Origin: Halosimplex aquaticum
Lineage (GTDB): Archaea; Halobacteriota; Halobacteria; Halobacteriales; Haloarculaceae
NCBI RefSeq assembly: GCF_028747785.1
Contig: NZ_CP118158.1
Span: forward strand, 3,410,001 to 3,474,000
Length of the DNA: 64,000 bases
Reading direction: 5' to 3'
A program made the translations under genes and the position numbers. Below, piece after piece: positions 667-56,839 of this stretch; position 1 is the stretch's first letter, and every line of letters starts with the position of its first letter. The notes beneath the pieces are model-generated. The model was not told the origin of the DNA. It made no database searches and saw only the letters and a list, made by a program, of their open reading frames with translations.

Positions 667-683
667 TTCCGGTAATACCGTAC
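667..683. promoter_or_regulatory. palindromic operator-like site A (IclR promoter)
   Basis: TTCCGGTAATACCGTAC, centred on 675, with the perfect core CGGTA-A-TACCG. It ends four bases before the TATA box TTTATAA (687-693) of the IclR-family gene, where it would cover the BRE/TFB region. This is one of ten copies in the window and the only one placed directly on a promoter. Autoregulation by the IclR protein is inference. Confidence 0.7.
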
Positions 684-684
684 A

Positions 685-694
685 GATTTATAAC
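685..694 (+). promoter_or_regulatory. TATA box of the IclR gene
   Basis: GATTTATAAC lies about 42 bases before the ATG at 732. Transcription would start near 716, leaving a leader of about 15 bases. The palindrome at 667-683 abuts it. Confidence 0.6.
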
Positions 695-731
695 GATCGA
701 GTTCCCAGTATCGGACAGAGGCGACCGAAGG

Positions 732-1493
732 ATGCAAACCGAGATCGACGTTCCGGTGAAGGCGACGCGGGTGAGCTTCGACGTCGTCGAGGTGCTCCGG
801 GCACTCGACGGGGCGGGCGTGACGGAAGTCGCGGACGAGCTCGACCTCCCGCGGAGTACAGTGCACGACCACCTCCGGACGCTGGAGGAGCTGGAGCTGG
901 TCGTCAACGAGGACGGGACGTACAAGACGGGGACCAGGTTCCTGGAGTTCGGGGGGTACGCGCGCCAGCGCATGAAGGTGTTCGATGTGGCCAAGCCCGA
1001 ACTACAGAAGCTCGCCGAACAGACGGGCGAACACTCCAATCTCATGATCGAGGAGCACGGCCGCGGCGTCTTCCTCTACAAGACCGAGGGGGAGAACGCG
1101 GTCAAGCTCGACACGTACAACGGCTACCGCGTCCACCTCCAGACCACGGCGCTCGGCAAGGCGATGATGGCCCACATGGACGAGGATCGCGTCCGCGACA
1201 TCCTCGACCGCCACGGCATGCCGGCGATCACCGACCGGACGGTCACCGACGAGGACGTGCTCTTCGAGCAGTTCGAGGAGATCCGCGAGCGGGGCTACGC
1301 CATCGACCGGGAAGAGCGCGTCCGCGGGATGATCTGCATCGCCGCGCCGCTGCTCGACGACGACGAAGTGCTGGGGGCCATCTCCGTCTCCGGCCCGAAA
1401 AACCGGATGCAGGGCGAGCGCTTCGAGGAGGAGATCCCGCGGCAGGTGCTGCGCATCGCCAACGTCATCGAAGTCAACATGACCCACGCGTAA
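732..1493 (+). CDS. IclR family transcriptional regulator
   Basis: A 253-residue protein of usual IclR length. Residues about 10-65 form the winged helix-turn-helix (GVTEVADELDLPRSTVHDHL is the recognition region), and residues about 75-250 form the effector-binding domain with the family's TALGKAMMA and RGMICIAAPL segments. It is the only transcription factor in the window. In haloarchaea, IclR proteins control sugar-acid pathways such as xylose/arabinose and rhamnose degradation (family knowledge). Its promoter holds the palindrome found nine more times near the dehydrogenase and rhamnonate dehydratase genes, so I infer it is the local pathway regulator. A sugar-acid intermediate is a likely effector, but none is shown. 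Confidence 0.93.
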   Translation: MQTEIDVPVKATRVSFDVVEVLRALDGAGVTEVADELDLPRSTVHDHLRTLEELELVVNEDGTYKTGTRFLEFGGYARQRMKVFDVAKPELQKLAEQTGEHSNLMIEEHGRGVFLYKTEGENAVKLDTYNGYRVHLQTTALGKAMMAHMDEDRVRDILDRHGMPAITDRTVTDEDVLFEQFEEIRERGYAIDREERVRGMICIAAPLLDDDEVLGAISVSGPKNRMQGERFEEEIPRQVLRIANVIEVNMTHA

Positions 1494-1678
1494 CAGCGAT
1501 ATCGACGCGCCCGGCTTTCCCACGGGCGCTGTCGGCGCATCGCCCCCGGTGAGGACCGGTCGGCGCCGGTCGGCACTGGCGTCACTGGCCGTCTCAGCGG
1601 TTCGTTGCCCTTCCCCGGCCGCCGCCGAAGCGTCGCCCTTCTAAAGATTTAAGGGCCGATGGGTCGCCTTTCTCGGTG

Positions 1679-2524
1679 ATGCGATTCGTTCGGTACACAG
1701 ACGGCGGTAGCGCCACCTGGGGCGTCCGGGACGGCGACACGATCCACTCGCTGGACGGCCAGCCCACGGGCGAACCGACCTACGAGGAACTGACCAACCA
1801 GAGCTATCTCGACGAGGTGCGCCGCCGCGTCGAGGGCGGCGCGCTCTCCCAGCGCTCCGCCGAGGAGGTCTCGCTGCTCGCGCCGGTGCCGGTCCCCGGC
1901 AAGATCGTCTGCGTGGGCCTGAACTACCGCGACCACGCCGAGGAACAGGACGAGGAGATCCCCGAGACGCCGCTGCTGTTCTCGAAGGCGCCGACGACGG
2001 TGACGAATCCGGGCGACCCGATCGTCCACCCGGGCGGCGACGAACAGGTCGACTACGAGGTCGAACTCGCCGTCGTGATCGGCCGCCAGGCGAAGGCTAT
2101 CGACGAGGACGAGGTCGACGACCACGTGGCCGGCTACACGGTCCTCAACGACGTGAGCGGGCGGCGTTCGCAGTTCGACGACGGCCAGTTCTTCCGCGGG
2201 AAGAGCTTCGACACGTTCTCGCCGATGGGCCCGTCGCTCGTCGCCGGCGACGACCTCGACCCCAACGCCGTCGACGTGTCGCTGCGCGTCAACGGCGACA
2301 CCAAACAGGACTCCAACACCGAGCAGTTCATCTTCGACGTCCAGGAAGCGGTCTCGTACATCAGCGAGCAGATGACGCTCCGTCCGGGCGACGTGATCTC
2401 CACCGGGACGCCGGGCGGCGTCGGTATCTTCCGCGAGCCCCTCGACCTGCTCGAACCCGGCGACGTCTGCGAGGCCGAGATCGAGGGCATCGGCACCCTG
2501 GAGAACCACGTCGTCGCCGAATAA
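1679..2524 (+). CDS. fumarylacetoacetate hydrolase (FAH) family protein, candidate 2,4-diketo-3-deoxy-L-rhamnonate hydrolase
   Basis: A 281-residue protein. A GTG lies one codon upstream (1676), but ATG 1679 is the natural start. The N-terminal cap (1-75) is followed by the FAH core opening with GKIVCVGLNYRDHAEE. Metal ligands are visible as the two Glu of VDYEVELAVVIG and the Asp of GYTVLNDVSGR; the end has STGTPGGVG. Family members cleave or dehydrate 2-keto sugar-acid intermediates. In the haloarchaeal diketo-hydrolase route for L-rhamnose, an FAH protein splits 2,4-diketo-3-deoxyrhamnonate to pyruvate and lactate. Rhamnose mutarotase and rhamnonate dehydratase in this window make that role attractive. 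The alternative is 2-keto-3-deoxyxylonate dehydratase or fumarylpyruvate hydrolase. Confidence 0.88.
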   Translation: MRFVRYTDGGSATWGVRDGDTIHSLDGQPTGEPTYEELTNQSYLDEVRRRVEGGALSQRSAEEVSLLAPVPVPGKIVCVGLNYRDHAEEQDEEIPETPLLFSKAPTTVTNPGDPIVHPGGDEQVDYEVELAVVIGRQAKAIDEDEVDDHVAGYTVLNDVSGRRSQFDDGQFFRGKSFDTFSPMGPSLVAGDDLDPNAVDVSLRVNGDTKQDSNTEQFIFDVQEAVSYISEQMTLRPGDVISTGTPGGVGIFREPLDLLEPGDVCEAEIEGIGTLENHVVAE

Positions 2525-2666: not shown

Positions 2667-2900
2667 TTAGCCCTGAAGGTTCCCGCACTCGGTGCAGGTC
2701 AGTTCGGACCGACTGCCGGCGAGGTCGACGCCGTGGGTCCGCTCGGTGTCACAGTCCGGGCAGTAAGCCCGCGATTCGAGCGCGTCCCAGTCGTGGCCGG
2801 CGCCGGGTGCACCGAACGCCCGTAGTCGTTCGGGGTCGCCCGCGTGGGAACTTTTACTATCGCTGCGGATCCACCGGCTGGTATGGTACTCGATTCCCAT
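2667..2900 (-). CDS. small CxxC zinc-ribbon protein (start uncertain)
   Basis: A minus-strand frame ends with CPDCDTERTHGVDLAG and CTECGNLQG, two CxxC knuckles about 20 residues apart, typical of haloarchaeal mini zinc-finger proteins. The only in-frame ATG nearby (2898-2900) gives 77 residues but would overlap the start of the divergent amidohydrolase by 18 bases. The frame is also open far into that gene, which is a shadow. The zinc-ribbon end is convincing; the N-terminus is not settled. Function unknown. Confidence 0.5.
   Translation of the reverse strand: MGIEYHTSRWIRSDSKSSHAGDPERLRAFGAPGAGHDWDALESRAYCPDCDTERTHGVDLAGSRSELTCTECGNLQG
2850..2860 (+). promoter_or_regulatory. TATA-like element of the amidohydrolase
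   Basis: ACTTTTACTAT is centred about 28 bases before ATG 2883, the spacing of a haloarchaeal leaderless promoter. Confidence 0.4.
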
Positions 2901-3755
2901 ACGCACACGTGGGGCCCGCCGAGCGACGACCACCCGTGGGTCAACGGGCCGCTCGTGGATGGTTCGGTCGACTCCTTCTCGGTCGATACGGTGTTCCGGA
3001 ACGAGAAGCTGCTCGACGAGATGGACGCCGTCGGCGTCGACGAGGCCGTCGTCGTCGGCTATCCCATCTGCGAGTGGACGGACAACTGGTACACGGTCGA
3101 GGCCGCCCGCGAGCACGACCGGCTGTACGGCGTGGTGATGCTCGACCAGTTCGCCGACGGCGCGGCCGACGACCTCCGCGAGGCGATGGCCGTCGACGGC
3201 GTCCTCGGGTTCAGACTGGGCGGGCTCTGCCCCTACGACCGCATGTGGGAGACGTTCGACCGGTCGGTGACCTGGCTCCGGGACGCGGCCGAGGAGACCG
3301 AGTTCTGGGAGGCCGCCGCCGAGACGGACGCGCTCGTCCAGATCCTCGTCCGCGGCGAGCAACTCGACCAGGCGCTCGAACTCGTCGAGCGCTACCCCGA
3401 CCTGACGTACCTCTTCGACCACTTCGCCTACGCCGAGCCCGACGAACCGCTCGGCGAGGGGGTCTACGAGACGTTCTCCGCGCTCGCCGAGTACGACTCG
3501 GTCGGAGTGAAGGTCTCGGAGATCGTCCACCAGTCCGACGAGGGTCACCCCTACGCCGACATGCACGACCACGTGCGGTGGCTGCTCGACGAGTTCGGCC
3601 GCGAGCGCGTCGTGTGGGGGTCGGACTTCCCGAACGTCTCCGACGAGGCGACCTACGGAGAGACGCTGTCGTGGGTCGACGCCGTCGACGACCTCTCGAC
3701 CGGCGATCGCAAGTGGCTCACCGACCGAGCGTTCCGCCGGCACGTCGACCTGTAA
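2883..3755 (+). CDS. amidohydrolase family TIM-barrel hydrolase, candidate sugar lactonase
   Basis: A 290-residue protein. The start MVLDSHTHTW places the HxH metal motif at residues 5-7, as in amidohydrolase-2 enzymes; an upstream in-frame codon at 2844 would add 13 residues ahead of the TATA element and is rejected. Other marks are YLFDHFAY (metal His region) and VVWGSDFPN near the C-terminus (the conserved Asp). Relatives include L-rhamnono- and L-fuconolactonases and decarboxylases. Between the FAH protein and a sugar dehydrogenase, lactone hydrolysis is the best guess, but it is inference. A decayed partial copy of its 3' end lies near 29.17-29.24 kb. Confidence 0.85.
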   Translation: MVLDSHTHTWGPPSDDHPWVNGPLVDGSVDSFSVDTVFRNEKLLDEMDAVGVDEAVVVGYPICEWTDNWYTVEAAREHDRLYGVVMLDQFADGAADDLREAMAVDGVLGFRLGGLCPYDRMWETFDRSVTWLRDAAEETEFWEAAAETDALVQILVRGEQLDQALELVERYPDLTYLFDHFAYAEPDEPLGEGVYETFSALAEYDSVGVKVSEIVHQSDEGHPYADMHDHVRWLLDEFGRERVVWGSDFPNVSDEATYGETLSWVDAVDDLSTGDRKWLTDRAFRRHVDL

Positions 3756-3834: not shown

Positions 3835-3857
3835 ATATTCCGGTAATGCCGGAATAT
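3835..3857. promoter_or_regulatory. palindromic site B, longest copy
   Basis: Nine-base perfect arms (ATATTCCGG and its complement) flank the five-base centre TAATG, giving a 23-base inverted repeat centred on 3846. It starts 80 bases after the amidohydrolase stop codon. The short loop would make a poor hairpin, so a dimeric-protein site is more likely than a terminator. Confidence 0.65.
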
Positions 3858-4096
3858 ATCCACGTCCGTACCGCCATCGCTGGGGAACTGTCCGGCTTGC
3901 GAACGCAGGGAGGATCCTGAAACAGGTGGTCGAATTCCCACGATCGGCGGGCCCGCAGATGACTACGACGAGAAATTACGTTTGTAAGGATGTAATGTAA
4001 GCCGTGTTACGACTACTCGGCAGTGTCTGCTGTCGCGGATTCACTTCCAGCGCGGGACCGTCGATAGCAGGCCGTCTTGCCCGTCTCGTAACGTTC

Positions 4097-4113
4097 GTAC
4101 GGTAATACCGGAA
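4097..4113. promoter_or_regulatory. palindromic site C
   Basis: GTACGGTAATACCGGAA, centre 4105, followed by GCAATATGAG. It lies exactly 115 bases from site D; the same 115-base spacing separates sites F and G beside dehydrogenase 2. Confidence 0.65.
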
Positions 4114-4211: not shown

Positions 4212-4228
4212 GTCCGGTATTACCGAAA
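4212..4228. promoter_or_regulatory. palindromic site D
   Basis: GTCCGGTATTACCGAAA, centre 4220, followed by TAAATG. All 17 bases are identical to site F at 29628-29644. Confidence 0.65.
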
Positions 4229-4420: not shown

Positions 4421-5455
4421 TCAGGTAGCAGCGAACGTGAAGACGGGCTTGACGACTTCGGAGTTGAGGAACGCTTCGAAGGCGGCGGTGGGGTCGGCCG
4501 TAGAGAACGAGTCGTCGACGACGGCCTCGGCGTCGATCGCGCCGTTTTCCATGAGCCGCAGCGCCTGCTCGAAGTTCGTCCAGTCCGAGCCGTAGGAACT
4601 GATAACGTCGATTTCGCCGCGGACGACCGGCGTCATCAACACCTCGCTGGGTTCGCGCGGGATGCCGACGACGACGACTTCCCCGCCCTTGCGGACGACC
4701 TCGACGCCGGTCTCGACACCCGTATAATGGCCGCTGGCGTCGAACACGGCGTCGAAGCCGACGTCGTCCGTTCTGACGTTCGCGTGAGTTTCGAGGTCCG
4801 CCTCGGAGATGTTGATCGTGTCGATGCCGAGCGATTCGACGAGGGGGAGCCGGGAGGTGGCGTCCTGGTCGAGGCCGGAGACGAGGACGTTCGCGCCGAG
4901 CGAATCAGCGACCGCCGCGGTGAACACGCCGATCGGCCCCGGCCCTTCGACCAGCACGTCGTCACCCGGATTTACCGACGACCGAGTGAGGACCGCGCGC
5001 GTCGCGATGCTCATCGGTTCGGTGATCGCCGCATCGGCCAGAGAAACGGCGTCGGGGACGGCGTGGAGGTGTTCGGGGTCGACGACGGTGTACTCGGCGT
5101 AGGCGCCGTCGCGGTGCATGCCGGTGATCGAAAAGTTCTGACAGATGTTCTCCTCGCCGTTGCGGCACTGAAAACACTCCCCGCAGTTGTGGATCGGTTC
5201 CTCGACGACGCGGTCCCCCGGGTCGAAACTCGTCACCTCCTCGCCGACGGCTTCGACCGTGCCCGAGTACTCGTGGCCCATGATGCGAGGCATGGCGATC
5301 CAGTCGTACCCGCCCTCGTACTCGTAGGCGTGGGCGTCGCTCCCACAGATACCTGCCGTGTGCACCCGGACGAGAACTTCCGCTGGACCGGGGGACGGCC
5401 GCTCTCCTTCCTGAACTTCGACGGACGCTGGGCCCGTCTGAACTATCTGTTTCAT
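4421..5455 (-). CDS. zinc-dependent medium-chain alcohol dehydrogenase, copy 1
   Basis: A 344-residue MDR enzyme of the sorbitol/threonine/galactitol-phosphate dehydrogenase group. Catalytic zinc ligands are Cys37 (AGICGSD) and His61-Glu62 (MGHEYSG). The structural zinc site is Cys91, 94, 97 and 105 (CGECFQC...C). The Rossmann motif is EGPGPIGVF. It would oxidise a sugar, sugar acid or polyol with NAD(P)+; in this context a rhamnose- or galacturonate-derived hydroxyl group is plausible. It differs from the 29904-30938 paralogue at only about 19 residues by my count, a recent duplication. A TATA-like CATAAAAATACC lies near 5509-5520. Confidence 0.93.
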   Translation of the reverse strand: MKQIVQTGPASVEVQEGERPSPGPAEVLVRVHTAGICGSDAHAYEYEGGYDWIAMPRIMGHEYSGTVEAVGEEVTSFDPGDRVVEEPIHNCGECFQCRNGEENICQNFSITGMHRDGAYAEYTVVDPEHLHAVPDAVSLADAAITEPMSIATRAVLTRSSVNPGDDVLVEGPGPIGVFTAAVADSLGANVLVSGLDQDATSRLPLVESLGIDTINISEADLETHANVRTDDVGFDAVFDASGHYTGVETGVEVVRKGGEVVVVGIPREPSEVLMTPVVRGEIDVISSYGSDWTNFEQALRLMENGAIDAEAVVDDSFSTADPTAAFEAFLNSEVVKPVFTFAAT

Positions 5456-16368: not shown

Positions 16369-17388
16369 ATGGGATACCTGCGGAATCGATTACTGCAGGC
16401 AGTAATCACGCTGTACAGTATCATCACTCTGGGGTTCGTGTTCATACGCATGATGCCGGGGGACCCGACTGCCTACCTCCGGGCGGAGATCCAGCAGAAC
16501 CCGGGCGCCTACGGGCTGCCGCCGAACCCGACGCTGGAGGAGATAAACGAGGTCATGCAGTCCCAGATGAACTACACGCCGGGCCCGATCTGGGAGAAGT
16601 ACATCTCCTACATGCAGGGCGCGATACAGGGCGACTTCGGGACGTCGGTGATCGTCGACCCCGGCGCGTCGAACGTCCAGCTCATCCTGGAGGCGGCGCC
16701 GTGGACGATCTTCATCTCCTCGGCGGGGCTGGTCTACGGCCTCGTCGCGGGGATCGTCCTCGGGTCGCTGATGGCCTACTACGAGGGGACGAAGATGGAC
16801 GTCGGGCTGACGGTCTCGATGCTGGCCGCCAGTTCGATACCCTACTACATCGTGGCCATCCTCCTGCTGTTCCTGTTCTCCTACAACCTCGAGTGGTTCC
16901 CGACGGGTGGGCGGTTCAACACCGACACGACGCCCGGGTTCAACTACCCGTTCATCGCGGGGGTGTTCAACCACGCGGCGTTACCGATACTCTCGGGGAT
17001 AACGATAGGATTCGGCGGGAACGCGCTCAGCCTGCGCGCGAACTCGATCCGCCTGCTCGGCGAGGGCCACATCCGCAACGCCGAGCTCCGGGGCCTGTCG
17101 ACGTACACTATCTCGACGCGCTATCTCGCCCGCAACGCGATCCTCCCGATGTACACGGGGATCGTCCTGGGGCTGGCCGGCCTGATCGGCGGGTCGATCA
17201 TCCTCGAAGAGATCTTCGTCTACAGGGGGATGGGCAAGCTGATGTACGACGCGACGGTCCAGCGGGACTTCCCGCTGATGACGACGTCGCTGATCTTCAC
17301 GACGATCATATTCGTCGCGGGGACGCTGATAGCCGACTTCACGTACTCGCTGATCGATCCGCGGGCCGAGCAGTCCAGCATGGGGTGA
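16369..17388 (+). CDS. ABC transporter permease, DppB type (transporter 1)
   Basis: 339 residues from ATG 16369 (MGYLRNRLLQAVITLYSI), chosen over the in-frame upstream codon at 16351. Six helices are expected; FVFIRMMPGDP is the DppB N-terminal hallmark, and the cytoplasmic EAA loop is around AELRGLSTYTISTRYLARNAILPM. It forms the channel with the next permease. The stop is followed seven bases later by the DppC start, so they form one operon through 20660. Confidence 0.95.
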   Translation: MGYLRNRLLQAVITLYSIITLGFVFIRMMPGDPTAYLRAEIQQNPGAYGLPPNPTLEEINEVMQSQMNYTPGPIWEKYISYMQGAIQGDFGTSVIVDPGASNVQLILEAAPWTIFISSAGLVYGLVAGIVLGSLMAYYEGTKMDVGLTVSMLAASSIPYYIVAILLLFLFSYNLEWFPTGGRFNTDTTPGFNYPFIAGVFNHAALPILSGITIGFGGNALSLRANSIRLLGEGHIRNAELRGLSTYTISTRYLARNAILPMYTGIVLGLAGLIGGSIILEEIFVYRGMGKLMYDATVQRDFPLMTTSLIFTTIIFVAGTLIADFTYSLIDPRAEQSSMG

Positions 17389-27764: not shown

Positions 27765-28961
27765 TTACACTCTGTCGCTCTCGTACTCGGGCAACTCTTC
27801 GAAGTCGGGCACCTCGGCGAGATAGAGGTTGCTCGACCCGTCGTAGCGGGCGGAGTCGAACAGCACGTGCGAGCCGTCGGGACTGAACCGCGTGTGGGGG
27901 TGTGGGCCCCGGTGGTCCCAGTCGTGCGTCGCGAGGATGCGCGGCCCCTCGTACTCGCCGGCTTCGTCGTCCCACCGGTACAGCAGGCTGTGGGGCACCT
28001 CCTCGAACGTGCCGTCGCAGACCAGCAACTCGGGCGAGTTGGCATGCGTGTGTGTCAGCGCGTACACCTCGTCCGGGAGAGCGGTCTCGCGGCGGTCCGT
28101 GTCGTCGTAGCGTGAACTCCCGATGAACGGGTCGGGGTCGTCGACGCGCTCGCGGCCCTGCGGGTCCTTCAGCGAGCCGTGGTAGCCGATGCGCTCGCCG
28201 TCCCGCATCCAGTACTCGTGGCCGACGCCGCCCGCTTCGGGTACCTCCCGGACTTTCCACGTCTCGCCCGTCTCGGCGTTCACCGACCAGATGCGGTTCT
28301 CGACGGCGTCCCACGGTCCCTCCTCGCAGTAGGTGAACAGTTCGGGGCGCGTCGGGGAGGCGTTGACGTGACTGCTGGCCCAGACGTCGACCTCTCTGAG
28401 GCGTTCCGGTTCGCCGCCGTCGGTCGGGGCCGACAGGATCCGCGTGTCCGGCGCTGCCTCGAACGTCCCGGTGAGCTTGTCGTCGCGCTCGGGCACCTCC
28501 ACGTCCTCGCCGATGGCGACGTAGAGCCGGCTCCCGTCGGCGTTCACGTCGAGGGACCCGCCGTTCCAGCCGTCGGGGACCTCGTAGTGGACGCCGTCGA
28601 CGCGCAGCGTCCGGAGGTCGAGACTCACCAGTCGGTCGTGAACCCAGAAGTACACGAGTTCCGCGTCGTGGTCGATCGAGGTCCCGCCGCGGAACCCCTC
28701 AATGTCGGTGATCTGCGTGATCAGGTCCGACTCCAGGTCGATCGAGTACAGCTGGCGGGAGCCGTCCCGGTCGGAGCGAAAGAGGAGGCGGCGGCCGTCG
28801 TCGTACCAGCCGTCTTCGGTGAAGTAGAGGTGATAGTCGCCGACCTCGGGATAGCTCGTCAGCCGGCGCACGCGCGCGCCGCTCGTCGGGTCCGCGAACG
28901 TCTCGTCCTCGGCGGGCCAGTGGCTGCCCGCTCGGGGCCCCTGTTCGATAGTCTCTGGCAT
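27765..28961 (-). CDS. oligogalacturonate lyase family protein (PL22-like)
   Basis: 398 residues, close to the usual size of Ogl (about 390). A seven-bladed propeller covers the whole length. Seen are YHLYFTEDGWYDDGRRLLFRSD, GGVGHEYWMRDGERIGYHG, NSPELLVCDGT and HDWDHRGPHPHTRFSPDG, with several His residues expected for Mn binding. It would split unsaturated or saturated digalacturonate in the cytoplasm; there is no signal peptide. TATA-like GCTATATCC lies near 28991-28999. Three palindromes lie 450-800 bases upstream of its start. Confidence 0.9.
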   Translation of the reverse strand: MPETIEQGPRAGSHWPAEDETFADPTSGARVRRLTSYPEVGDYHLYFTEDGWYDDGRRLLFRSDRDGSRQLYSIDLESDLITQITDIEGFRGGTSIDHDAELVYFWVHDRLVSLDLRTLRVDGVHYEVPDGWNGGSLDVNADGSRLYVAIGEDVEVPERDDKLTGTFEAAPDTRILSAPTDGGEPERLREVDVWASSHVNASPTRPELFTYCEEGPWDAVENRIWSVNAETGETWKVREVPEAGGVGHEYWMRDGERIGYHGSLKDPQGRERVDDPDPFIGSSRYDDTDRRETALPDEVYALTHTHANSPELLVCDGTFEEVPHSLLYRWDDEAGEYEGPRILATHDWDHRGPHPHTRFSPDGSHVLFDSARYDGSSNLYLAEVPDFEELPEYESDRV

Positions 28962-29167
28962 GATGAGTACCGAAATCCTGGGCCCCGCGGCGGATATAGC
29001 TTCCCCTCGCAGAACCTCTCGCTGGATATCTCCGCCCGATCGGTCTCCGACCGGCCCCGCGCGAGATATGGCTGAAGTCGCGGCCGAGCACTGGATTTCG
29101 CTGATCGCGACTCTACAGCGGACAGCGAGTCGCTGACAGCGTCGAACACGCCAGATAGGCGGAGATC

Positions 29168-29240
29168 GGCGAGTTCGGCCGCGAACGCGTCGATCGGTGT
29201 TCGGAATCTCCGAACGTCTCCGAAAGCACCGTCTACGCCG
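29168..29240 (+). pseudogene. relic of the amidohydrolase 3' region
   Basis: Translated in one frame the segment reads GEFGRERVDRCSESPNVSES, against DEFGRERVVWGSDFPNVSDE in the intact gene at 2883-3755. Over 66 ungapped bases I count about 16 mismatches. An in-frame TAG lies just before it. It sits upstream of the palindrome trio, just as the intact gene does at 3.6 kb, so it marks the left side of the duplicated segment. Confidence 0.6.
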
Positions 29241-29412
29241 CTCGATTCCTCGGATCGTCGGGTAGACGCTATTTTACTGATGACCGTACCCGACTCACCG
29301 GGAGCGGTTTCGATGTTGCTTCGGTTTCTCGCGGCCGTTTCGTTTGCCCACGTAGCCGTCTTCAGTAGTGTTCGGTCGTTCTAACGGGACACCAGGCTTC
29401 TGACAGGCTACA

Positions 29413-29429
29413 TTCCGGCAATACCGGAC
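29413..29429. promoter_or_regulatory. palindromic site E
   Basis: TTCCGGCAATACCGGAC, centre 29421. First of three copies upstream of the PL22-like gene and downstream of dehydrogenase 2. Confidence 0.65.
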
Positions 29430-29627
29430 CCCATTCACCACGTATCAGGCCGTATCGAATGCGTCACCGTGGTTGTCGACACCTCGAATTATATTACAGA
29501 ATTAGGATTGTAATCTGTAGTGTCGTTCCGGTCTGAGGCCGCCTCATTCGCCACGGCCCCGATGCGATGAATCCACCTTCAGCTCCGACGGTGGGGCAGT
29601 AATCGGCCGATTTCGAGGAACTATTTT

Positions 29628-29644
29628 GTCCGGTATTACCGAAA
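29628..29644. promoter_or_regulatory. palindromic site F
   Basis: GTCCGGTATTACCGAAA, centre 29636, followed by TCAATG. Identical over 17 bases to site D. Confidence 0.65.
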
Positions 29645-29742: not shown

Positions 29743-29759
29743 TTCCGGTATTACCGAAC
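29743..29759. promoter_or_regulatory. palindromic site G
   Basis: TTCCGGTATTACCGAAC, centre 29751, exactly 115 bases from site F, the same spacing as C to D. Confidence 0.65.
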
Positions 29760-29903: not shown

Positions 29904-30938
29904 TCAGGCGTCGGTGAAGCGGAAGACGGGCTTGACGACTTCGGAGTTGAGGAACGCTTCGAAGGCGGCGGTGGGGTCCGCCGTGGAAAAGGAGTCGTCG
30001 ACGACGGCCTCGGCGTCGATCGCGCCGTTTTCCATGAGCCGCAGCGCCTGCTCGAAGTTCGTCCAGTCCGACCCGTAGGAACTGACGATGTCGATCTCCC
30101 CGCGGACGACCGGCGTCATCAACACCTCGCTGGGTTCGCGCGGGATGCCGACGACGACGACTTCCCCGCCTTTGCGGACGACCTCGACGCCGGTCTCGAC
30201 GCCCGTGTAATGGCCGCTGGCGTCGAACACGGCGTCGAAGCCGACGTCGTCCGTTCTGACGTTCGCGTGGGTTTCGAGGTCCGCCTCGGAGATGTTGATC
30301 GTGTCGATGCCGAGCGATTCGACGAGGGGGAGCCGGGCGGCGGCGTCCTGGTCGAGGCCGGAGACGAGGACGTTCGCGCCGAGCGAATCGGCGACCGCCG
30401 CGGTGAACACGCCGATCGGTCCCGGTCCTTCGACCAGCACGTCGTCGCCGGGATTGATCGACGAGCGGGTCAAGACTGCCCGCGTGGCGATACTCAGCGG
30501 TTCCGTGATCGCCGCATCGGCCAGAGAAACGTCGTCAGGGACCGCGTGGAGGAACTCGGGGTCGACCACCGTGAATTCGGCGTAGGCGCCGTCGCGGTGC
30601 ATACCGGTGATCGAGAAGTTCTGGCAGATGTTCTCCTCGCCGTTGCGACACTGGAAACACTCCCCGCAGTTGTGGATCGGTTCCTCGACGACGCGGTCCC
30701 CCGGGTCGAAACTCCGCACCTCGTCGCCGACCTCGACGACTTCGCCGGAGTACTCGTGGCCCATGATGCGGGGCATGGCGATCCAGTCGTACCCGCCCTC
30801 GTACTCGTAAGCGTGGGCGTCGCTCCCACAGATACCTGCCGAGTGTACTCGGACGAGAACTTCCGCTGGACCGGGGGACGGTCTCTCTCCTTCCTGAACT
30901 TCGACGGACGCGGGGCCCGTCTGGACGATTTGCTTCAT
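29904..30938 (-). CDS. zinc-dependent medium-chain alcohol dehydrogenase, copy 2
   Basis: 344 residues, near-identical paralogue of the enzyme at 4421-5455. Differences cluster at residues 66-76 (GEVVEVGDEVRSF against GTVEAVGEEVTSF) and at the last few residues; all zinc ligands and the Rossmann motif are kept. The two genes resemble each other for about 25 bases upstream of the ATG, but the TATA regions differ (GATAAATAAAGG near 30986-30997 here), which suggests separate regulation. Role as for copy 1: oxidation of a sugar-derived hydroxyl group. Confidence 0.93.
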   Translation of the reverse strand: MKQIVQTGPASVEVQEGERPSPGPAEVLVRVHSAGICGSDAHAYEYEGGYDWIAMPRIMGHEYSGEVVEVGDEVRSFDPGDRVVEEPIHNCGECFQCRNGEENICQNFSITGMHRDGAYAEFTVVDPEFLHAVPDDVSLADAAITEPLSIATRAVLTRSSINPGDDVLVEGPGPIGVFTAAVADSLGANVLVSGLDQDAAARLPLVESLGIDTINISEADLETHANVRTDDVGFDAVFDASGHYTGVETGVEVVRKGGEVVVVGIPREPSEVLMTPVVRGEIDIVSSYGSDWTNFEQALRLMENGAIDAEAVVDDSFSTADPTAAFEAFLNSEVVKPVFRFTDA

Positions 30939-40799: not shown

Positions 40800-42251
40800 A
40801 TGCCTGCCGACCAGCCGAACGTCCTCGTCGTGATGACGGACCAGCAGCGCTACGATACGATCGCCGCGCTCGGACACGACCACGTCCACACGCCCAACCT
40901 CGACCGCCTCGCCGACCGCGGCGTCTCCTGCACGAACGCCTACAGCAGCGCGCCGATCTGCGTCCCCGCCCGACACAACGTCCGGACGGGCCGGGACCCC
41001 GTCGCGACCGGCTTCCTGGGCAACGACAAGCGGTCCGCCGAACACCTCGAAGCCGAACACGGCGCCTTCCTGGCCCGAGCGATGGGGAACAGGGGGTATC
41101 GGACATTCGGCATCGGCAAGTTTCACGCCCATCCCAGCGGCATCGACCTCGGCTACGACACCCGATTGACTGGCGACGACTACGCCGCCGAACCGGGCGC
41201 CGACGCCGCGGAGGACACCGGGCGACTGGCCGCGATGAACTTCCTCCCGCAGTCCTGCTCGCTCCCCCCCGACGACCGCAGGATGTCGTGGATCGCCGAC
41301 GAGGCCGTGGCGGAGATCGAGCGCGACACCGACGACCCGTTCTTCGGCTTCGTCTCCTTCTCGAAGCCCCACCCCGCGTGGAACCCCTCGCCGCCGTTCG
41401 ACGACTACTACGACCCCGACGACATGCCCGAACCGATACGCGAGGACCGCGACCTCGACCACGTCGACGAGAAGATCCCGGCCCAGAACTACCACTTCTG
41501 GAAGAGCCGCGAGGACGACACCGGGGAGTCCACGATCGGGATCGCCCGCGCCCACTACTACGGCCTCGTGACGCAACTCGACCGGGAGATCGGTCGGGTG
41601 CTCGACGCCGTCGAGGCGCGCGACGACGCCGAGAACACCCTGATCTGCTTCGTCTCCGACCACGGCGAACTCCTCGGCGACCACCACGGCTGGGGGAAGA
41701 GCTCCTTCTTCGAGGAGTCGGCCCGCGTCCCGTTCCTCGTCAGTTGGCCCGAGCGCCTTCCCGCCGGCGAGACGTACGACGGGCTCGTCTCGCTGACCGA
41801 CGTGTTCGGCATCGCGACGACCGCCGCCGGCGATCCGGACCTGCGCGACGGGTCCGACGTCCTCGGCGCGCTGACGGGCGAGGCCGAACCGCGCGAGCGG
41901 CTGTTCGGCGCCCACGAGACCCCGCGCGAGACGAGCCTGTTTTCCCTCCCGCACAACCTCACGTGCATGGTCCGCGAGGGCGACTGGAAGTACGTCTACG
42001 CGGTGAACGGCGGCCGCGAGCAACTGTTCGACCTCGACGCTGACCCCCGCGAGACGGTCGACCGCGCCGACGACGAACCGGAGGTGGTCGAGCGCTGTCG
42101 CCGCGCCGCCGTCCAGTGGCTCCGCGAGCACGGCGCGACCGAGTACCTCGACGGCGACTCGCTGCTGGAGATCCCCTTCGAGCAACTGGAGATGGGTCGG
42201 TACCATCCGGGGACGTACGGGCCACCGGACGAGGCGAGCGGCGAAAACTGA
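40800..42251 (+). CDS. sulfatase (S1 family, formylglycine type)
   Basis: 483 residues starting MPADQPNVLVVMTDQQR, so Asp14 is a metal ligand. The sulfatase signature ICVPARHNVRTGR gives C54-x-P-x-R58, the site converted to formylglycine by the Cys-type enzyme. SDHGELLGDHHGWGKSSFFE holds more metal ligands and MVREGDWKYV the C-terminal subdomain. No signal peptide, so it desulfates imported sugars in the cytoplasm. Beside GH78 and rhamnose genes, a sulfated rhamnose or uronate oligosaccharide is possible. A truncated relative lies at 27114-27458. Confidence 0.93.
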   Translation: MPADQPNVLVVMTDQQRYDTIAALGHDHVHTPNLDRLADRGVSCTNAYSSAPICVPARHNVRTGRDPVATGFLGNDKRSAEHLEAEHGAFLARAMGNRGYRTFGIGKFHAHPSGIDLGYDTRLTGDDYAAEPGADAAEDTGRLAAMNFLPQSCSLPPDDRRMSWIADEAVAEIERDTDDPFFGFVSFSKPHPAWNPSPPFDDYYDPDDMPEPIREDRDLDHVDEKIPAQNYHFWKSREDDTGESTIGIARAHYYGLVTQLDREIGRVLDAVEARDDAENTLICFVSDHGELLGDHHGWGKSSFFEESARVPFLVSWPERLPAGETYDGLVSLTDVFGIATTAAGDPDLRDGSDVLGALTGEAEPRERLFGAHETPRETSLFSLPHNLTCMVREGDWKYVYAVNGGREQLFDLDADPRETVDRADDEPEVVERCRRAAVQWLREHGATEYLDGDSLLEIPFEQLEMGRYHPGTYGPPDEASGEN

Positions 42252-42296
42252 GTCCCGGTCGAGTTCGATACCGCGACGATTCTCCCGATATCGACG

Positions 42297-45056: not shown

Positions 45057-45216
45057 CTCGCTCCCTCGTTTCCCGTACCGAATAATAAAGCCGGCGAGTG
45101 CGGTGTGAGAGCGGTCGGCAATGACTCGAAGCCGGGAAGTCCGTCGGCCACCGAGCGCATCGAAGAGAACGGACCTGTCGCATCCCGTGAAGGGTCGGTG
45201 CCTGCGTTCCCGGCGG

Positions 45217-46203
45217 TCAGTTGAACTCGGGGATGACCTCGTCGCCGAAGAGGCGGATCTGGTCTTCGACGAGGTCTTTGGGCATGCCCGAGTGGTGGAA
45301 TCGCAGGGCGAGCTGGTTGAGTTCGAAGCGCTCTTGCATGGCTTCGATCTGTTCGACGATCTGCTCGGGCGTGCCGTAGATGAAGCGGTTGTCGGCGAGT
45401 TCTTCGAAGTCTTCGACGCTGTCTGCGGTCATCAGCGGGTGGGAGAACTCGCCACCGTATTCGTCGACGTAGGTGGTGTGGAGGTACTCTTTGCGCTCCA
45501 TGACTTCTTCTTCGGTCTCGGCGATGACCGCCTCGCGCATGAGCGGGTGGTCCATCGACTCCCAGTCCTGGTCGGTGTCTTCGACGTGGTCGCGCTGCTG
45601 GTTCTTGCGGTCCTCGACGATGTCGAGGTCGGCGACGACGCCGGGCACCCACGCGTCGGAGAACTGCACCGACCGGCGGATCTGCTTGGGACCCCACCCG
45701 CCGATCCAGAGGCTCGGACGGGGTTCCTGGATGGTTTTGGGCAGCGGCTGCCAGTCTTCGACCTCGAAGAACGGACACTCGTAGGAGATCGGTTCTTCCG
45801 AAGAGAGGAACTCGTCGATGAACTGGATGCCCTCGATCATCCGGCCCGCCCGCTCGTCCATCGGCACGCCAAAGGCCTCGAACTCTTCCTCGACGTAGCC
45901 CAGGCCGACACCGAGCGTCAGGCGACCGTCGGAGATGTTGTCGAGCATCGCCGCGCGCTGGGCGACGTGCAGCGGGTGGTACAGCGGCAGGATGAGCACG
46001 GAGGTGACGAGTTCGAGTTCTTCCGTGCCCTGGGCGATACTGGTGAGGCGCGTCAGCGGCGACGGCCAGTAGTTGTCGCCCTCGGTCGCCTGGTGGTCGT
46101 TGACCCAGCACGTCTCGAAACCGACGTCCTCGGCGACCTGGCACTGCTCGACGACACCCTCCCAGGTGTCACCGCCCTCTATCGGGAAAATACCGAATTT
46201 CAT
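45217..46203 (-). CDS. LLM-class flavin-dependent oxidoreductase 1
   Basis: 328 residues, luciferase-like TIM barrel opening MKFGIFPIEGGDTWEGVVEQ. SPLTRLTSIAQGTEELELVTSVLILPLYHP and LTLGVGLGYVEEEFEAFG are family marks. Haloarchaeal members often use coenzyme F420. It stands beside GH78 and rhamnose mutarotase; a second LLM protein is coupled to rhamnonate dehydratase at 54163. Substrate unknown. Confidence 0.9.
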   Translation of the reverse strand: MKFGIFPIEGGDTWEGVVEQCQVAEDVGFETCWVNDHQATEGDNYWPSPLTRLTSIAQGTEELELVTSVLILPLYHPLHVAQRAAMLDNISDGRLTLGVGLGYVEEEFEAFGVPMDERAGRMIEGIQFIDEFLSSEEPISYECPFFEVEDWQPLPKTIQEPRPSLWIGGWGPKQIRRSVQFSDAWVPGVVADLDIVEDRKNQQRDHVEDTDQDWESMDHPLMREAVIAETEEEVMERKEYLHTTYVDEYGGEFSHPLMTADSVEDFEELADNRFIYGTPEQIVEQIEAMQERFELNQLALRFHHSGMPKDLVEDQIRLFGDEVIPEFN

Positions 46204-46329
46204 TGCTACGCCCGATGCTGTGCGTGGCGGTCACTTACCTGTTGTGCTGTTTCGGCGTCGTGGTTGTTCAGTATCGGTTACTGCTGGTGGGTGTGTCGTC
46301 AAGGAAAGTGAACCGGGCACGACCGCAGG

Positions 46330-46600
46330 AGCCAGCAGGCATTGAAAGCCCTCGGCGCGCTCGCGGTCGCTGAGCGGGATATTCTCGCTCGCTCCGCTCA
46401 CTCGAATAGGGCCCGCTCAGACGATTCCGTTCGCTTCGCTCACCGCGAGCCCGCCTCGCCCTTTCAGTCCGCCAGGGACAGCACCGCGGCCACCCAGCAC
46501 AGCACCGCACCTCGAACCTCCCCAGCCGATTCCTTCGCTCGCTGCGCTCGCTCAGTCATCCCTCGCGCGACTACTGTCGCGAGATGAAACTCGCGCCAGC
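46330..46600. repeat. low-complexity interspersed repeat
   Basis: Recurring CTCGCTCGCTCCGCTCACTC, TCGCTTCGCTCACCGCGAG and TCGCTCGCTGCGCTCGCTCA blocks. The exact boundaries are uncertain. Confidence 0.5.
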
Positions 46601-46641
46601 GCGCGCCACTGCAATCGTTTACTCTGCGGGCTGTACTGACT

Positions 46642-46671
46642 GCTGTACAGCTGTCGGCGCCCAAAATATTA
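46642..46671 (+). promoter_or_regulatory. promoter and small palindrome of the mutarotase gene
   Basis: TATA element AAAATATTA (46663-46671) is about 31 bases before ATG 46698. Just upstream is the perfect palindrome GCTGTACAGC (46642-46651), with another CTGTAC at 46631; a possible operator different from the CGG-type palindrome. Confidence 0.45.
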
Positions 46672-46697
46672 TGCGGGAGTCGGGCGCGGTGGTGTAC

Positions 46698-47003
46698 ATG
46701 GAGCGAATCGCGTTCCACCTCACTATCGAGGACGGCCAGCGAGACGCGTACCGGGAGGAACACGAGAACGTCCCCGAGGCCCTGGAGCGGGCCTATCTCG
46801 ACTCCGACGCCGGGCTCGAGACCTACTCCGTCTTCGAGGAGGACGGCCACGTCTTCGGGTTCATGGAGCTCGAGAACCCCGAGGCCATCGAGGAGGTCAT
46901 GGAGTCGAGCGAGGCTCAGGCCGACTGGGACGAGGTGATGGACGGCATCCTCGAAGGCGACGACGGCGACATCTGGATGGACGAAGTGTACCGGATGGTC
47001 TGA
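46698..47003 (+). CDS. rhaM: L-rhamnose mutarotase
   Basis: 101 residues from ATG 46698; earlier in-frame ATGs overlap the TATA box. The fold is a ferredoxin-like dimeric alpha/beta barrel. Conserved are RIAFHLTIEDG, YREEHENVPEAL, LETYSVFEEDGHVFGFMEL and the aromatic/Trp end (ADWDEVMDG...WMDEVYRM). RhaM interconverts the anomers of L-rhamnose, feeding the sugar from rhamnosidase into oxidation. It is a direct marker that rhamnose is the monosaccharide used. Confidence 0.93.
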   Translation: MERIAFHLTIEDGQRDAYREEHENVPEALERAYLDSDAGLETYSVFEEDGHVFGFMELENPEAIEEVMESSEAQADWDEVMDGILEGDDGDIWMDEVYRMV

Positions 47004-54162: not shown

Positions 54163-55194
54163 TCAGGCGAACTCGGGCATCACTTCGTCGGCGAACAGTT
54201 CCATGCCCTCGAAGTCCGGGTAGTCGACGAACCAGCACTGGAACTTCGTGACTCCGGCGTCGACGCGGTCCTCGATGGCGTCGGCGCACTCCTCTGGCGT
54301 GCCCATGACGAAGTACTCCCGGGCGTCTTCCTCCGTCTCGATGGGCGCCTGGTCCTGGTACTCCTCCTCGAACTGGATCGGCGTCATGAGGTCGAGCAGG
54401 CGGTCGAACTTCGCCTCGTCGCGGGTGCAGATGACGTGGCCGTCCCAGGAGTACTCGATGTCCGCCGGGTCGCGGCCCACCGTCTCGCAGTGGTCCTCGA
54501 TGACCGAGATCTTGTGCTCCAGCGTCGGCACGTCGCCGTTGAACACGTCGGTGTTCCACACGTCGGCGTGCTTGGCGACGAGTTTGAGCGTGACCTCCTC
54601 GCCCTGGCCGCCGACGAGGATCGGCGGATGGGGGTCCTGCACGGGTCCGGGCTCGCAGTGGGCGTCTTCGATCTGGTAGTGGTCGCCGTCGAAGTCGGCG
54701 CCCTCCCCGGGGTCGGTGTCCCACATCCGCTTCATCAGGCGGATGCTCTCGTCGAGGCGCATCAGGCGCTCGAAGCCGTCGCGGTACTCCCAGCCGTAGG
54801 CGTCGTACTCGGGCTCGTGCCACCCGGCGCCGAGGCCGAGCTGGAGCCGCCCGTTCGAGACCACGTCGAGGGTGGCGGCCATCTTCGCGACGAGCGCGGG
54901 GTTGCGGTAGTCGTTGCAGAGGACGAGCGAGCCGACGTCGATGTCGTCGGTCTCGCCGGCGAGCGCCGACAGCAGCGTCCAGCACTCGTACTCGGCGTTG
55001 TCGCGCCCGAGCATCAGGTGGTCGGGCGCCCACGCGGCGTCGAAGCCCAGTTCCTCCGCGCGGCGGACGCCTTCGAGCGTGGTCTCCCAGTCGAGCGACT
55101 CGTACGCCGGCGTGTCGCGGTGGACGGGTTCGTTCCCCTCGTCGGGGGCGCCCGCGAACACCGGCACGTTGTACTCGAAGCTGATGTCGGACAT
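54163..55194 (-). CDS. LLM-class flavin-dependent oxidoreductase 2
   Basis: 343 residues from ATG 55194 (MSDISFEYNVPVFAG). Luciferase-like barrel: LEGVRRAEELGFDAAWAPDHLML, ALAGETDDIDVGSLVLCNDYRNPALVAKMAATLDVVSNGRLQLG and PPILVGGQGEEVTLKL. The GGRLQLGLGAGWHEPEYDAYG-type region is usual for F420-dependent enzymes. It starts two bases after the stop of rhamnonate dehydratase, so both are probably made from one transcript, suggesting a role in the same pathway. Confidence 0.92.
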   Translation of the reverse strand: MSDISFEYNVPVFAGAPDEGNEPVHRDTPAYESLDWETTLEGVRRAEELGFDAAWAPDHLMLGRDNAEYECWTLLSALAGETDDIDVGSLVLCNDYRNPALVAKMAATLDVVSNGRLQLGLGAGWHEPEYDAYGWEYRDGFERLMRLDESIRLMKRMWDTDPGEGADFDGDHYQIEDAHCEPGPVQDPHPPILVGGQGEEVTLKLVAKHADVWNTDVFNGDVPTLEHKISVIEDHCETVGRDPADIEYSWDGHVICTRDEAKFDRLLDLMTPIQFEEEYQDQAPIETEEDAREYFVMGTPEECADAIEDRVDAGVTKFQCWFVDYPDFEGMELFADEVMPEFA

Positions 55195-55196
55195 GC

Positions 55197-56402
55197 TCAC
55201 TCCACGGCGTAGTTGTCGAGCGCCTCGCGGTTGAGTTCGGAGCTGAGGCCGACCCCGTCGGGCAGCGGGATGACGCCGTCCTCGGCGTCCGGCGGGTGCT
55301 CGTAGATGGCGTCGGCGTAGGTGGAGTCTTTCTCCTCCTGCTGTTCCTGGAACCACTCGGGGATGGGGAAGTACTCGGCCATCGGCGCGTTCGTCGACGC
55401 GGCGATGAAGTGCAGGTGCGGGTTCGTCCCCGAGTGGGGGACGACAGGCACGTCGTGCGTGCTCGCGAGCGCGTCGATCTTCTGGAGCTCCGTCAGGCCG
55501 CCGCAGCGGTGGACGTCCGGCTGGAGGATGTCCACGGCCTCGCGTTCGAGCAGTTCCTCGTGACCCCAGCGGGTGAACTCGTGCTCGCCGCCGGAGATGG
55601 GGATGCTAGTCGACTCGCGGACCTCGGCGTAGCCGTCGATGTCGTCGGGGATGACCGGCTCTTCGACCCACTCCATGTCGTATTTCTCCAGTCGGTCGAG
55701 CATCTTCTTCGCGTAGCGGACCGACCAGCCCATGTAGGCGTCGCCGGCGATGGCGATGTCGTGGCCAACGGCGTCGCGGACAGTCTTGACGATCTCCTCG
55801 TTCTCCTTCATGCCCGCGCGGCCGGCCTCGGGGCCGTGCCTGAAGCGGAGCTTCATCGCGTCGAAGCCCTTCTCGGCGTACTCGATGGCCTCGCGTTCGA
55901 GCGTGTCCATATCGACCGGATGCAGGTTGCTCGCGTAGCAGGGGATCTCGTCTGTGACCGGTCCGCCCAGCAGTTCGTAGACGGGCTTGTCGGCCTCCTT
56001 GCCGGCGATGTCCCACAGCGCCAGGTCGACGGCGCTGATCGCCTCGATGGCGGCGCCCTTCCGCCCGAAGGGGATCGTCGCCCGGTACATGATGTCCCAG
56101 AGCTTCTCGCGCTCCTGGGGGTCTTCGCCGACGACGAGCTTCGAGAGCGTCTCGTCGACGATGGTCTCGATGGCGCCCGTCGCCCAGTTGCCGTGGCCGA
56201 CGCCGGTGATCCCGGCGTCGGTGTGGACCTCGACGACGACGTCGCCGACCGGCCCCATCCATTTGCGGCGGGCCTGCGGGTTGTCCCCGTCGGCGTTGTT
56301 GTACTCGTCGTACTTGCTCATGACTGTGACGAGGGGGAACTCCACGAACTCGCCCCACGATTCTGTGCTCACGCTCGTGACGTCAATATCGGTGATCTCC
56401 AT
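55197..56402 (-). CDS. L-rhamnonate dehydratase-like enolase superfamily enzyme
   Basis: 401 residues from ATG 56402; TTG 56441 is rejected since it lies at the TATA box. The N-terminal capping domain (MEITDIDVTSVSTESWGEFV...NPQARRKWMGP) is typical of rhamnonate dehydratases. Metal ligands: Asp in AGDAYMGW, Glu in EWVEEPV, Glu in SGGEHEF; catalytic His in VVPHSGTN. It dehydrates L-rhamnonate to 2-keto-3-deoxy-L-rhamnonate. TATA CTTTATATAAT (56443-56453) and three palindromes lie upstream (centres 56599, 56692, 56831). Confidence 0.9.
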   Translation of the reverse strand: MEITDIDVTSVSTESWGEFVEFPLVTVMSKYDEYNNADGDNPQARRKWMGPVGDVVVEVHTDAGITGVGHGNWATGAIETIVDETLSKLVVGEDPQEREKLWDIMYRATIPFGRKGAAIEAISAVDLALWDIAGKEADKPVYELLGGPVTDEIPCYASNLHPVDMDTLEREAIEYAEKGFDAMKLRFRHGPEAGRAGMKENEEIVKTVRDAVGHDIAIAGDAYMGWSVRYAKKMLDRLEKYDMEWVEEPVIPDDIDGYAEVRESTSIPISGGEHEFTRWGHEELLEREAVDILQPDVHRCGGLTELQKIDALASTHDVPVVPHSGTNPHLHFIAASTNAPMAEYFPIPEWFQEQQEEKDSTYADAIYEHPPDAEDGVIPLPDGVGLSSELNREALDNYAVE

Positions 56403-56590
56403 AGTAGACGCTGAATGCCGTTCGTTCCATACATCGGACAACCTTTATATAATCCTTGCGTGCCCGGTCGCCGTCCCGTGGTGGACCGCTCGCCCGTCCC
56501 GGGCCGCCGGGCGTCGCTCGGAGCGAACTGCCGCGGTTCACAATCCCCGGAATTCTCTCGCCGCGTCGTTTGTCAACGAATTGCACTACC

Positions 56591-56607
56591 TTCCGGTATT
56601 ACCGAAA
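56591..56607. promoter_or_regulatory. palindromic site H
   Basis: TTCCGGTATTACCGAAA, centre 56599, about 150 bases upstream of the TATA box of the rhamnonate dehydratase gene. Confidence 0.65.
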
Positions 56608-56683
56608 CGAGGCTGCTCGTTTCTGTGATCGAAACTGGGTGCAACCGGATCTACTCCTCAATGGCCGTTTCTGCGCATTTTCT

Positions 56684-56700
56684 TTCCGGCATTGCCGGAC
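56684..56700. promoter_or_regulatory. palindromic site I
   Basis: TTCCGGCATTGCCGGAC, centre 56692, 93 bases from site H. Symmetric through CCGGCA-T-TGCCGG. Confidence 0.65.
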
Positions 56701-56822
56701 TTTGGCACCCCCTCTCTGACGGCCGGCTCGAAACCGGCTAGCCTGGGCCGTCAAGACCGTGGAATAGGACCCTTCTGATGGGAATTACAAATATACAGAT
56801 GTAATTCTAAGTGCCGATGTGG

Positions 56823-56839
56823 GTCCGGTATTGCCGGAC
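56823..56839. promoter_or_regulatory. palindromic site J
   Basis: GTCCGGTATTGCCGGAC, centre 56831, 139 bases from site I. Symmetric outer arms GTCCGG and CCGGAC. Confidence 0.65.

Follow-up and report, generated by a model that had tools for sequence, protein, structure and literature searches.

XacR, a regulator of the IclR family, reportedly represses its own gene via a palindrome at its own promoter. Operators of IclR group 1 follow the consensus GKTYCRYW3-4RYGRAMC, according to the available part of PMC8222616, and RhcR, another IclR protein, is described in the accessible text of PMC11519228 as the haloarchaeal rhamnose activator. In archaea, the sites of activators tend to be located just upstream of, or over, the B recognition element (BRE), and some lie far from the start (PMC7408454, in the portion available). 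Here, we describe a 17-bp palindrome, P, with ten copies in a stretch of 64,000 nucleotides of Halosimplex aquaticum (RefSeq assembly GCF_028747785.1, contig NZ_CP118158.1, positions 3,410,001 to 3,474,000 of the forward strand; hereafter, the window, i.e., the whole stretch analyzed). One copy (site A) lies at the promoter of an RhcR-like IclR gene, and the other nine form three intergenic clusters, each of which also contains a second palindrome, IR, that is absent from the first-pass annotation of this DNA. These clusters are likely to be distal composite control elements.

The first-pass annotation had placed ten copies of P in the window, none of them inside a gene, and both statements held: all ten were recovered with at most two mismatches to TTCCGGYAWTRCCGGAA, and none overlaps a called gene (0/10), whereas shuffled sequences, allowing up to three mismatches, gave a mean of 0.27 sites and a maximum of 3. 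The consensus of the sites is KTNCGG-YAWTR-CCGNAM. It should be noted that genes were called with our own script (at least 60 codons) everywhere outside the window and for the most part inside it, and the deposited annotation was not the source. A genome-wide search did not yield hundreds of evenly spread matches, the outcome that had been named as speaking against a regulator site. The 5,163,082-base genome has the CGGYAWTRCCG core at 16 places, and the window accounts for 10 of these; the reversed control gave 6. The six core copies outside the window lack the outer bases of the 17-mer. The 17-mer KTNCGGYAWTRCCGNAM, derived from the window's own ten sites, which span one 56-kb stretch, has no copy elsewhere in the genome; the full palindrome, with two or fewer mismatches, is found at four extra places, none of them with the exact core. 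A matrix built from 20 sites of H. aquaticum and H. salinum detected no further P site at 7 bits or more within the window (12 places among 218 kb of other genome stretches); thus, the other promoters of the island lack P. Across a class-wide sample, the strict 17-mer was found in 25 of 291 other genomes (28 sites; reversed control, 2) and, within the family, in 14 of 145 other genomes.

Site A is located 57 bp before the start of the IclR gene. For the remaining sites, the distance to the nearest start is 963-1235 bp in cluster 1, 460-790 bp in cluster 2 and 197-429 bp in cluster 3; the range of 150-800 bases that had been proposed for most sites thus fails for cluster 1, while the placement of sites B-D between convergent genes was correct, as convergent genes flank this cluster. 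The three clusters are about 25-27 kb apart. The 3' ends of dehydrogenase genes adjoin clusters 1 and 2, and P sites are surrounded in the window by enzymes of rhamnose and polysaccharide metabolism.

The second palindrome, IR, has the form ATTACA-N4-TA-N4-TGTAAT (first seen as ATTAC-N12-GTAAT) and is present once in each of the three clusters, both in H. aquaticum and in its relative H. salinum; the chance expectation for IR in the three cluster gaps is 0.013. With at most one mismatch (ATTACA-N10-TGTAAT), there are 22 places in the genome, compared to 1 for the control. Clusters 1 and 2 both read P-IR-P-P, as does cluster 3 in the backward direction, in both species. In a search for palindrome pairs performed with two scripts, the three clusters beat all shuffles (0/30 and 0/40). 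A generalization of this result, that every IR is part of a similar array, was rejected: among the 19 other IR copies, only one (L071) beat all shuffles (GC-rich family, one script). In Halosimplex, all seven P-P pairs without an intervening IR are spaced near whole helical turns (8.9-11.1 turns).

The layout is conserved in relatives. H. salinum YPL4 (G005) carries exactly ten strict P sites on one contig and in the same order: one P precedes the IclR gene, and the other nine are arranged in threes. Of the 50 called proteins of the window, 44 were matched in this species, 38 of these at 80-98.5% identity. Comparison of aligned positions at site A shows that 17/17 are identical within the site and 80/113 outside of it; in the gap of cluster 1, 63/73 site positions agree, compared to 315/590 outside the sites, and in the gap of cluster 3 the respective numbers are 57/73 and 266/505; around the sites, the DNA of these two gaps is about 53% identical to that of H. 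salinum. In H. pelagicum (G004, L060), there is one cluster, between a GH43-like gene and the IclR gene; its P sites are weaker, their order is that of cluster 1 and their spacing nearly so. Elsewhere in this genome (L138, 2942-3085), three IR copies, one of them with a mismatch, stand in a row exactly 61 bp apart.

IclR homologues with 59-60% identity are present in seven Haloferax loci, six of which share the gene order ADH-RhaD-LUX-IclR-FAH-SDR (labels denote the best matches to window proteins). For a broader comparison we used 40 of 41 orthologue loci (L087 was dropped, because its contig is too short upstream). The half-site pair TCCG-N7-CGGA is located within 110 bp before the start of the IclR match in 31 of the 40 loci, compared to 0.017 per 110 bp elsewhere in the loci; its position is -35 to -60 in 30 loci, and the remaining match (L109, at -9) probably occurred by chance. 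The P matrix scores at least 14 bits before IclR in 19/40 loci, in 18 of these at -50 to -55, and the 14 bases that follow TCCG-N7-CGGA are 62% A+T, compared to the locus mean of 37%. It should be noted that the query alignment consisted of six IclR proteins, each of them chosen near a P site, so the orthologue set is not blind. Conversely, an IclR homologue is present in 17 of 36 other loci that were fetched for a strict P. These results suggest that P is very probably the operator of this RhcR-like IclR clade, the protein that would bind it being the IclR regulator. The earlier proposal of a dimeric-regulator site of a rhamnose/pectin locus is borne out by the confinement of P to the island, the H. 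salinum layout, the orthologue loci and the neighboring enzymes; the extent of the proposed regulon is not, as the other island promoters are without P. A second IclR group, with about 40% identity to the window IclR (e.g., in Natronomonas; L029, L031, L032, L061-L063, L118-L121), has a P-like site about 40 bp before the start and another one 14-71 bp after the stop.

The pairing of P with IR is not restricted to Halosimplex. Of the 16 IR copies in 39 named loci, 11 have a TCCG-N7-CGGA no more than 200 bp away, whereas the average in 2000 samples of gap positions from these loci was 4.63 and the highest count was 9. Two Halosimplex loci with a shared layout (L083 and L084) were left out of this comparison. 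Nine L loci come from genomes that are also in the G set (L083=G005, L084=G004, L105=G208, L109=G216, L113=G015, L115=G332, L119=G272, L120=G369 and L123=G289), and the L and G sets are therefore not independent of each other. In three Haloferax species, the convergent gap at the rhaM end holds four P-like sites and one IR (L089, 341-889; L092, 340-882; L112, 341-883); in these three of the seven Haloferax loci, with one mismatch allowed, IR is 124 bp from a P-like site, and two P-like sites of the cluster are 21 bp apart. P-like sites together with IR were also found in H. carlsbadense, Halorubrum lipolyticum, Halogeometricum, Natrinema, Halobonum and Halorarius.

Two types of genomic neighbors were associated with IR. 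The first is IclR genes. All 19 IR copies outside the window are intergenic with respect to called genes; for 10 of the 22 copies in the genome, one of the 14 IclR domains is no more than 6 kb away (5000 random placements gave 0.81 on average and 5 at most), and this is true of 9 of 19 when the window is disregarded. Among 10 of the 21 genomes with a strict IR, 30 of 69 strict copies are located within 3 kb of an IclR domain, several of them only a few hundred bases away; uniform placement, a control that ignores the crowding of sugar genes, gave a mean of 1.37 and a maximum of 6 in 2000 rounds. Two fragments of one IclR gene of G006 were merged for this analysis.

The second neighbor is rdfA, next to which stands the gene for an archaea-specific SMC-related protein (ASRP). 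IR is found at rdfA in all eight Halosimplex genomes (six exact, two with one mismatch), and an exact IR at rdfA is also present in G014 and G381. In the H. aquaticum genome (C1:1881598-1884227; L069, L150), IR occupies the short gap after rdfA and before the SMC-related gene; this copy has one mismatch and therefore is not counted among the strict ones. The same arrangement is seen in relatives (L148, L151, L154-L157, L160, L163, L167). In 30 rdfA loci, all 14 IR positions matched in 9, 13 in 3, 12 in 6 and fewer in 12 (counts without a shuffled control). A strict IR lies within 500 bp of rdfA in 6/10 genomes (6 copies compared to 0.057 expected). Ten of 59 genomes, but none of the eight Halosimplex genomes, have the variant ATAACA-N4-TA-N4-TGTTAT, which is located within 500 bp of rdfA in 5 of the 9 checked rdfA-bearing genomes that have it. 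Counted by eye, IR or the variant is present in 28 of 46 rdfA-positive genomes (one of the 46 below the family cut-off) and in 2 of 13 rdfA-negative genomes. Neither of the two rdfA genes of H. aquaticum is in the window, in which no rdfA was found. In all seven Haloferax loci (L088, L089, L090, L092, L096, L099, L112), the rdfA/SMC-like pair lies downstream of the rhamnose genes, and two of these loci (L092 and L112) also have a P-like site 105 bp before rdfA. IR is presumably bound by some protein, and its positions make it a candidate DNA site for the RdfA/SMC-like pair.

Taken together, the results favor the following interpretation, to which we assign a probability of about 0.7: site A is autoregulatory, and the clusters are distal composite elements of the P-binding IclR protein and a second factor at IR. 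Because P lies directly before the TATA box of the regulator's own gene, the regulator is expected to control itself. The proposed mechanism has four elements: (i) the IclR protein on site A would sit before its own TATA box and most likely represses or tunes its own gene; (ii) the nine other P sites would make up three composite control elements, each consisting of three P sites and one IR; (iii) IclR dimers on separate P sites probably join, while a second, broader factor with targets throughout the genome would be bound at IR; and (iv) the clusters would work on the flanking rhamnose/pectin genes from 197 bp to more than 1.2 kb, rather than from a promoter position. The distal clusters would be explained most simply by the joining of IclR dimers, together with a second factor at IR. 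Conserved clusters of sites lying away from promoters, the mark of a distal enhancer-like element, were indeed found, and action of the clusters at a distance is suggested by this arrangement of sites. The first-pass annotation had remarked that a plain operator model is insufficient, and this opinion is strengthened by other genera, in which strict P sites are also found between convergent genes.

Several observations weigh against this interpretation. The gap of cluster 2 could not be aligned with that of H. salinum outside the sites, and the faulty alignment gives agreement at 55/124 site positions, although the sites themselves are in the same order. Of the 31 orthologue loci that have the operator, just 2 show a strict TATA pattern after it. 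In the 36 other loci, 7 of 39 strict P sites, belonging to 7 of the loci, fall inside genes, hence single matches in other genera include noise. Of the intergenic sites of these loci, 9/31 are in convergent gaps, compared to 5.1 expected, an excess that in our judgment is not significant; enrichment of P in convergent gaps was therefore rejected, and the sole claim made is that P does not avoid them. With at most one mismatch, IR is absent from 4/4 Haloarcula loci and from 4/7 Haloferax loci, where the examined stretches show no rhaM. Helical phasing was discarded as a general rule: in other genomes, it was seen in 3 of 14 hand-picked P-P pairs, with 4 expected.

Alternative explanations differ in how well they accommodate these data. 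Tentatively, IR might instead be recognized by a general transcription factor of carbohydrate metabolism that has no relation to RdfA and controls both the IclR loci and the rdfA locus. This alternative is consistent with the 29 of 63 strict IR copies that are not at rdfA and nevertheless lie within 3 kb of an IclR domain, and with the lack of a recognizable match of RdfA to a DNA-binding fold. The best predicted RdfA structure (7 sequences) has a mean pLDDT (predicted local distance difference test) of 68.6, the other four models having 45-49; a Foldseek comparison of this low-confidence model to the PDB gave no match at E 0.001 or better, and comparison of the sequence to solved structures gave one hit, at E 0.14. 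However, a general factor of this type does not account easily for the rdfA copy of IR in every Halosimplex genome, or for the recurrence of the ATAACA variant close to rdfA.

More doubtful is the idea that the clusters are loop or loading anchors, in which RdfA binds IR and recruits its SMC-like partner, whereas RhcR-like dimers at P gate the process in response to sugar. The clusters would then be enhancer-like composite elements, combining operator arrays with an anchor, through which a sugar island could be folded or insulated as one unit and be switched by distant sites. Both DNA looping and the identification of the IR factor with RdfA and its partner are hypothetical, and the latter is a bold proposal. 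The location of IR between rdfA and the ASRP gene, as well as the rdfA/SMC-like pair after the rhamnose genes in the Haloferax loci, favor this idea. Conversely, the accessible text of PMC10869688 presents RdfA as a cell-shape factor and does not name a DNA site; in 12/30 rdfA loci, there is no IR-like match better than 11/14 positions, and an incomplete rdfA-negative genome (G023) has three IR copies. If the anchor idea is true, IR copies near IclR genes would represent the anchor set of the genome, linking carbohydrate regulation to cell-shape proteins.

It is quite unlikely that the clusters are decoys, which soak up the regulator and set the response threshold with no nearby promoter required. 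Many sites are indeed far from starts, and convergent gaps contain sites in other genera too; however, decoys predict neither the P/IR order shared by two species, nor the H. pelagicum layout, nor IR beside P-like sites elsewhere. A marginally lower probability is assigned to the possibility that the gaps contain small genes or non-coding RNAs missing from the annotation and that the clusters are simply their promoter operators. The gaps that hold the sites are long, and a TATA-like TATATCC follows site B; however, in clusters 1 and 3 little of the gaps but the sites is kept, the TATA-like run is not conserved, and the window contains no Rfam family at the gathering score and no tRNA, the gene calls covering frames of at least 60 codons. 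Leftovers of old promoters after gene rearrangement are a most improbable source of the clusters: a decayed lactonase in the gap of cluster 2 points to an old copy of a lactonase-cluster-dehydrogenase unit, but the nine clustered P sites and three IR copies all have counterparts in H. salinum, while the flanks in clusters 1 and 3 are at about 53% identity. The last three explanations fit the shared P/IR layout less well than the composite elements of joined IclR dimers and a second factor.

The genes of the island and the positions of all sites are listed below. The lactonase remnant, which was not detected in H. salinum by our comparison, indicates a probable common origin of clusters 1 and 2 from a single lactonase-cluster-dehydrogenase unit. 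The nucleotide identities of the two dehydrogenase copies are 92.4% and 91.9% within each species and 86.3-87.9% between species; being more alike within than between species, the copies appear to undergo gene conversion, as the sequence comparison suggests, while the cluster gaps drifted apart. The region 36429-47003 encodes a sulfatase, a GH78 rhamnosidase, GH43, beta-helix proteins with ricin-type lectin domains, and rhaM, and may be an island devoted to a rhamnose polysaccharide, either sulfated or pectic. A gene for a luciferase-like monooxygenase (54163-55194) follows rhamnonate dehydratase in 18 of the 19 named loci that show the dehydratase, in many genera (counted by eye). An inverted repeat with 8-base arms, ATTACTGC-AG-GCAGTAAT (16389-16406), is unlike P or IR and lies 44 bp before an ABC transporter permease gene in both species (H. 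salinum copy at r5 26960).

Positions of the palindromes and of the neighboring genes in the window
Feature	Position	Strand	Remarks
P site A	667..683	.	2-3 bases before TATA-like ATTTATAA of the IclR promoter
P site B	3838..3854	.	cluster 1
P site C	4097..4113	.	cluster 1
P site D	4212..4228	.	cluster 1
P site E	29413..29429	.	cluster 2
P site F	29628..29644	.	cluster 2
P site G	29743..29759	.	cluster 2
P site H	56591..56607	.	cluster 3
P site I	56684..56700	.	cluster 3
P site J	56823..56839	.	cluster 3
IR, cluster 1	3975..3996	.	one mismatch
IR, cluster 2	29493..29514	.	no mismatch
IR, cluster 3	56784..56805	.	no mismatch
IclR-family regulator, RhcR-like, presumed to bind P	732..1493	+	PF01614 E 2.9e-39; 59-60% to Haloferax homologues
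2,4-didehydro-3-deoxy-L-rhamnonate hydrolase-like (FAH family)	1679..2524	+	NF053535 E 3.5e-64, below curated cut-off; start from own gene call
Amidohydrolase_2, probable sugar lactonase	2883..3755	+	L-fucono-lactonase model E 2.4e-12, below cut-off
Zinc-type dehydrogenase, copy 1	4421..5455	-	cluster 1 at 3' end
Oligogalacturonate lyase-like (Pectate_lyase22)	27765..28961	-	E 4.4e-31
Decayed lactonase gene remnant in the cluster 2 gap	29120..29281	+	tblastn 37% over 62 amino acids, E 1e-6
Zinc-type dehydrogenase, copy 2	29904..30938	-	
L-rhamnonate dehydratase-like (MR_MLE)	55197..56402	-	best model PRK15440 E 1.3e-74, below cut-off

Distal, conserved composite clusters, one of them between convergent genes, along with a similar one in the genetically tractable Haloferax, make long-range control in archaea directly testable, and hint at distant control of sugar genes in these organisms. 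Likewise, IR supplies a possible DNA target for two partner proteins that genetic work has tied to cell shape, together with a ready list of candidate places. We recognized no published report of the clusters or of IR in a literature search, in which the IR sequence was not queried and most subscription papers were outside reach.

In bacteria, parS, ParB and SMC constitute a system with loading sites. The scattered palindromes described here may likewise be paired with an SMC-type protein, which is an analogy alone: the sequence of IR is unrelated to parS, and its copies lie near IclR loci. As for the RdfA/SMC-like (Sph) pairs, RdfA and Sph3 are published as rod-shape factors and such pairs as cell-shape determinants, and the term "DNA-binding" has no occurrence in the main text of PMC10869688, while IR is shared by the rdfA/SMC-like loci of several genera. 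The motif of CsmR, TATCA-N4-TGATA, is likewise a haloarchaeal palindrome, and its regulator is tied to the expression of rdfA and sph3; however, according to the accessible part of PMC13286277, it differs in sequence and length from both P and IR, and CsmR was rejected as the IR binder for that reason.

The haloarchaeal IclR activators of sugar use XacR, GacR, RhcR and MscR, as presented in the available text of PMC11519228, resemble the system described here in that an IclR protein lies beside sugar-catabolic genes, with similar neighbors in Haloferax, whereas the distal composite clusters with a second palindrome set the window apart in this comparison of regulators and gene neighborhoods. 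Close counterparts of P are the IclR group 1 operators, with which, in the part of PMC8222616 available, it shares the palindrome with half-sites KTYCR/YGRAM (an exception in P being A at position 3 in 5/40 half-sites) and a site at the regulator's own promoter, here in 31/40 orthologue loci, one of them doubtful. One distinction is in the spacer, which in group 1 is 5-6 bases between GTNCG and CGNAC, and in P is 7 bases between KTNCG and CGNAM in 20/20 sites. Furthermore, group 1 sites are mostly at -20 to -80, as is site A only, the other nine sites being 197-1235 bp from starts, and neighboring group 1 sites are 18-22 bp apart, whereas neighboring P sites of the two Halosimplex species are 93-268 bp apart, with one 21-bp pair in the Haloferax cluster. 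In comparison with these systems, P represents a known type of operator with altered spacing, and the novelty lies in the composite clusters.

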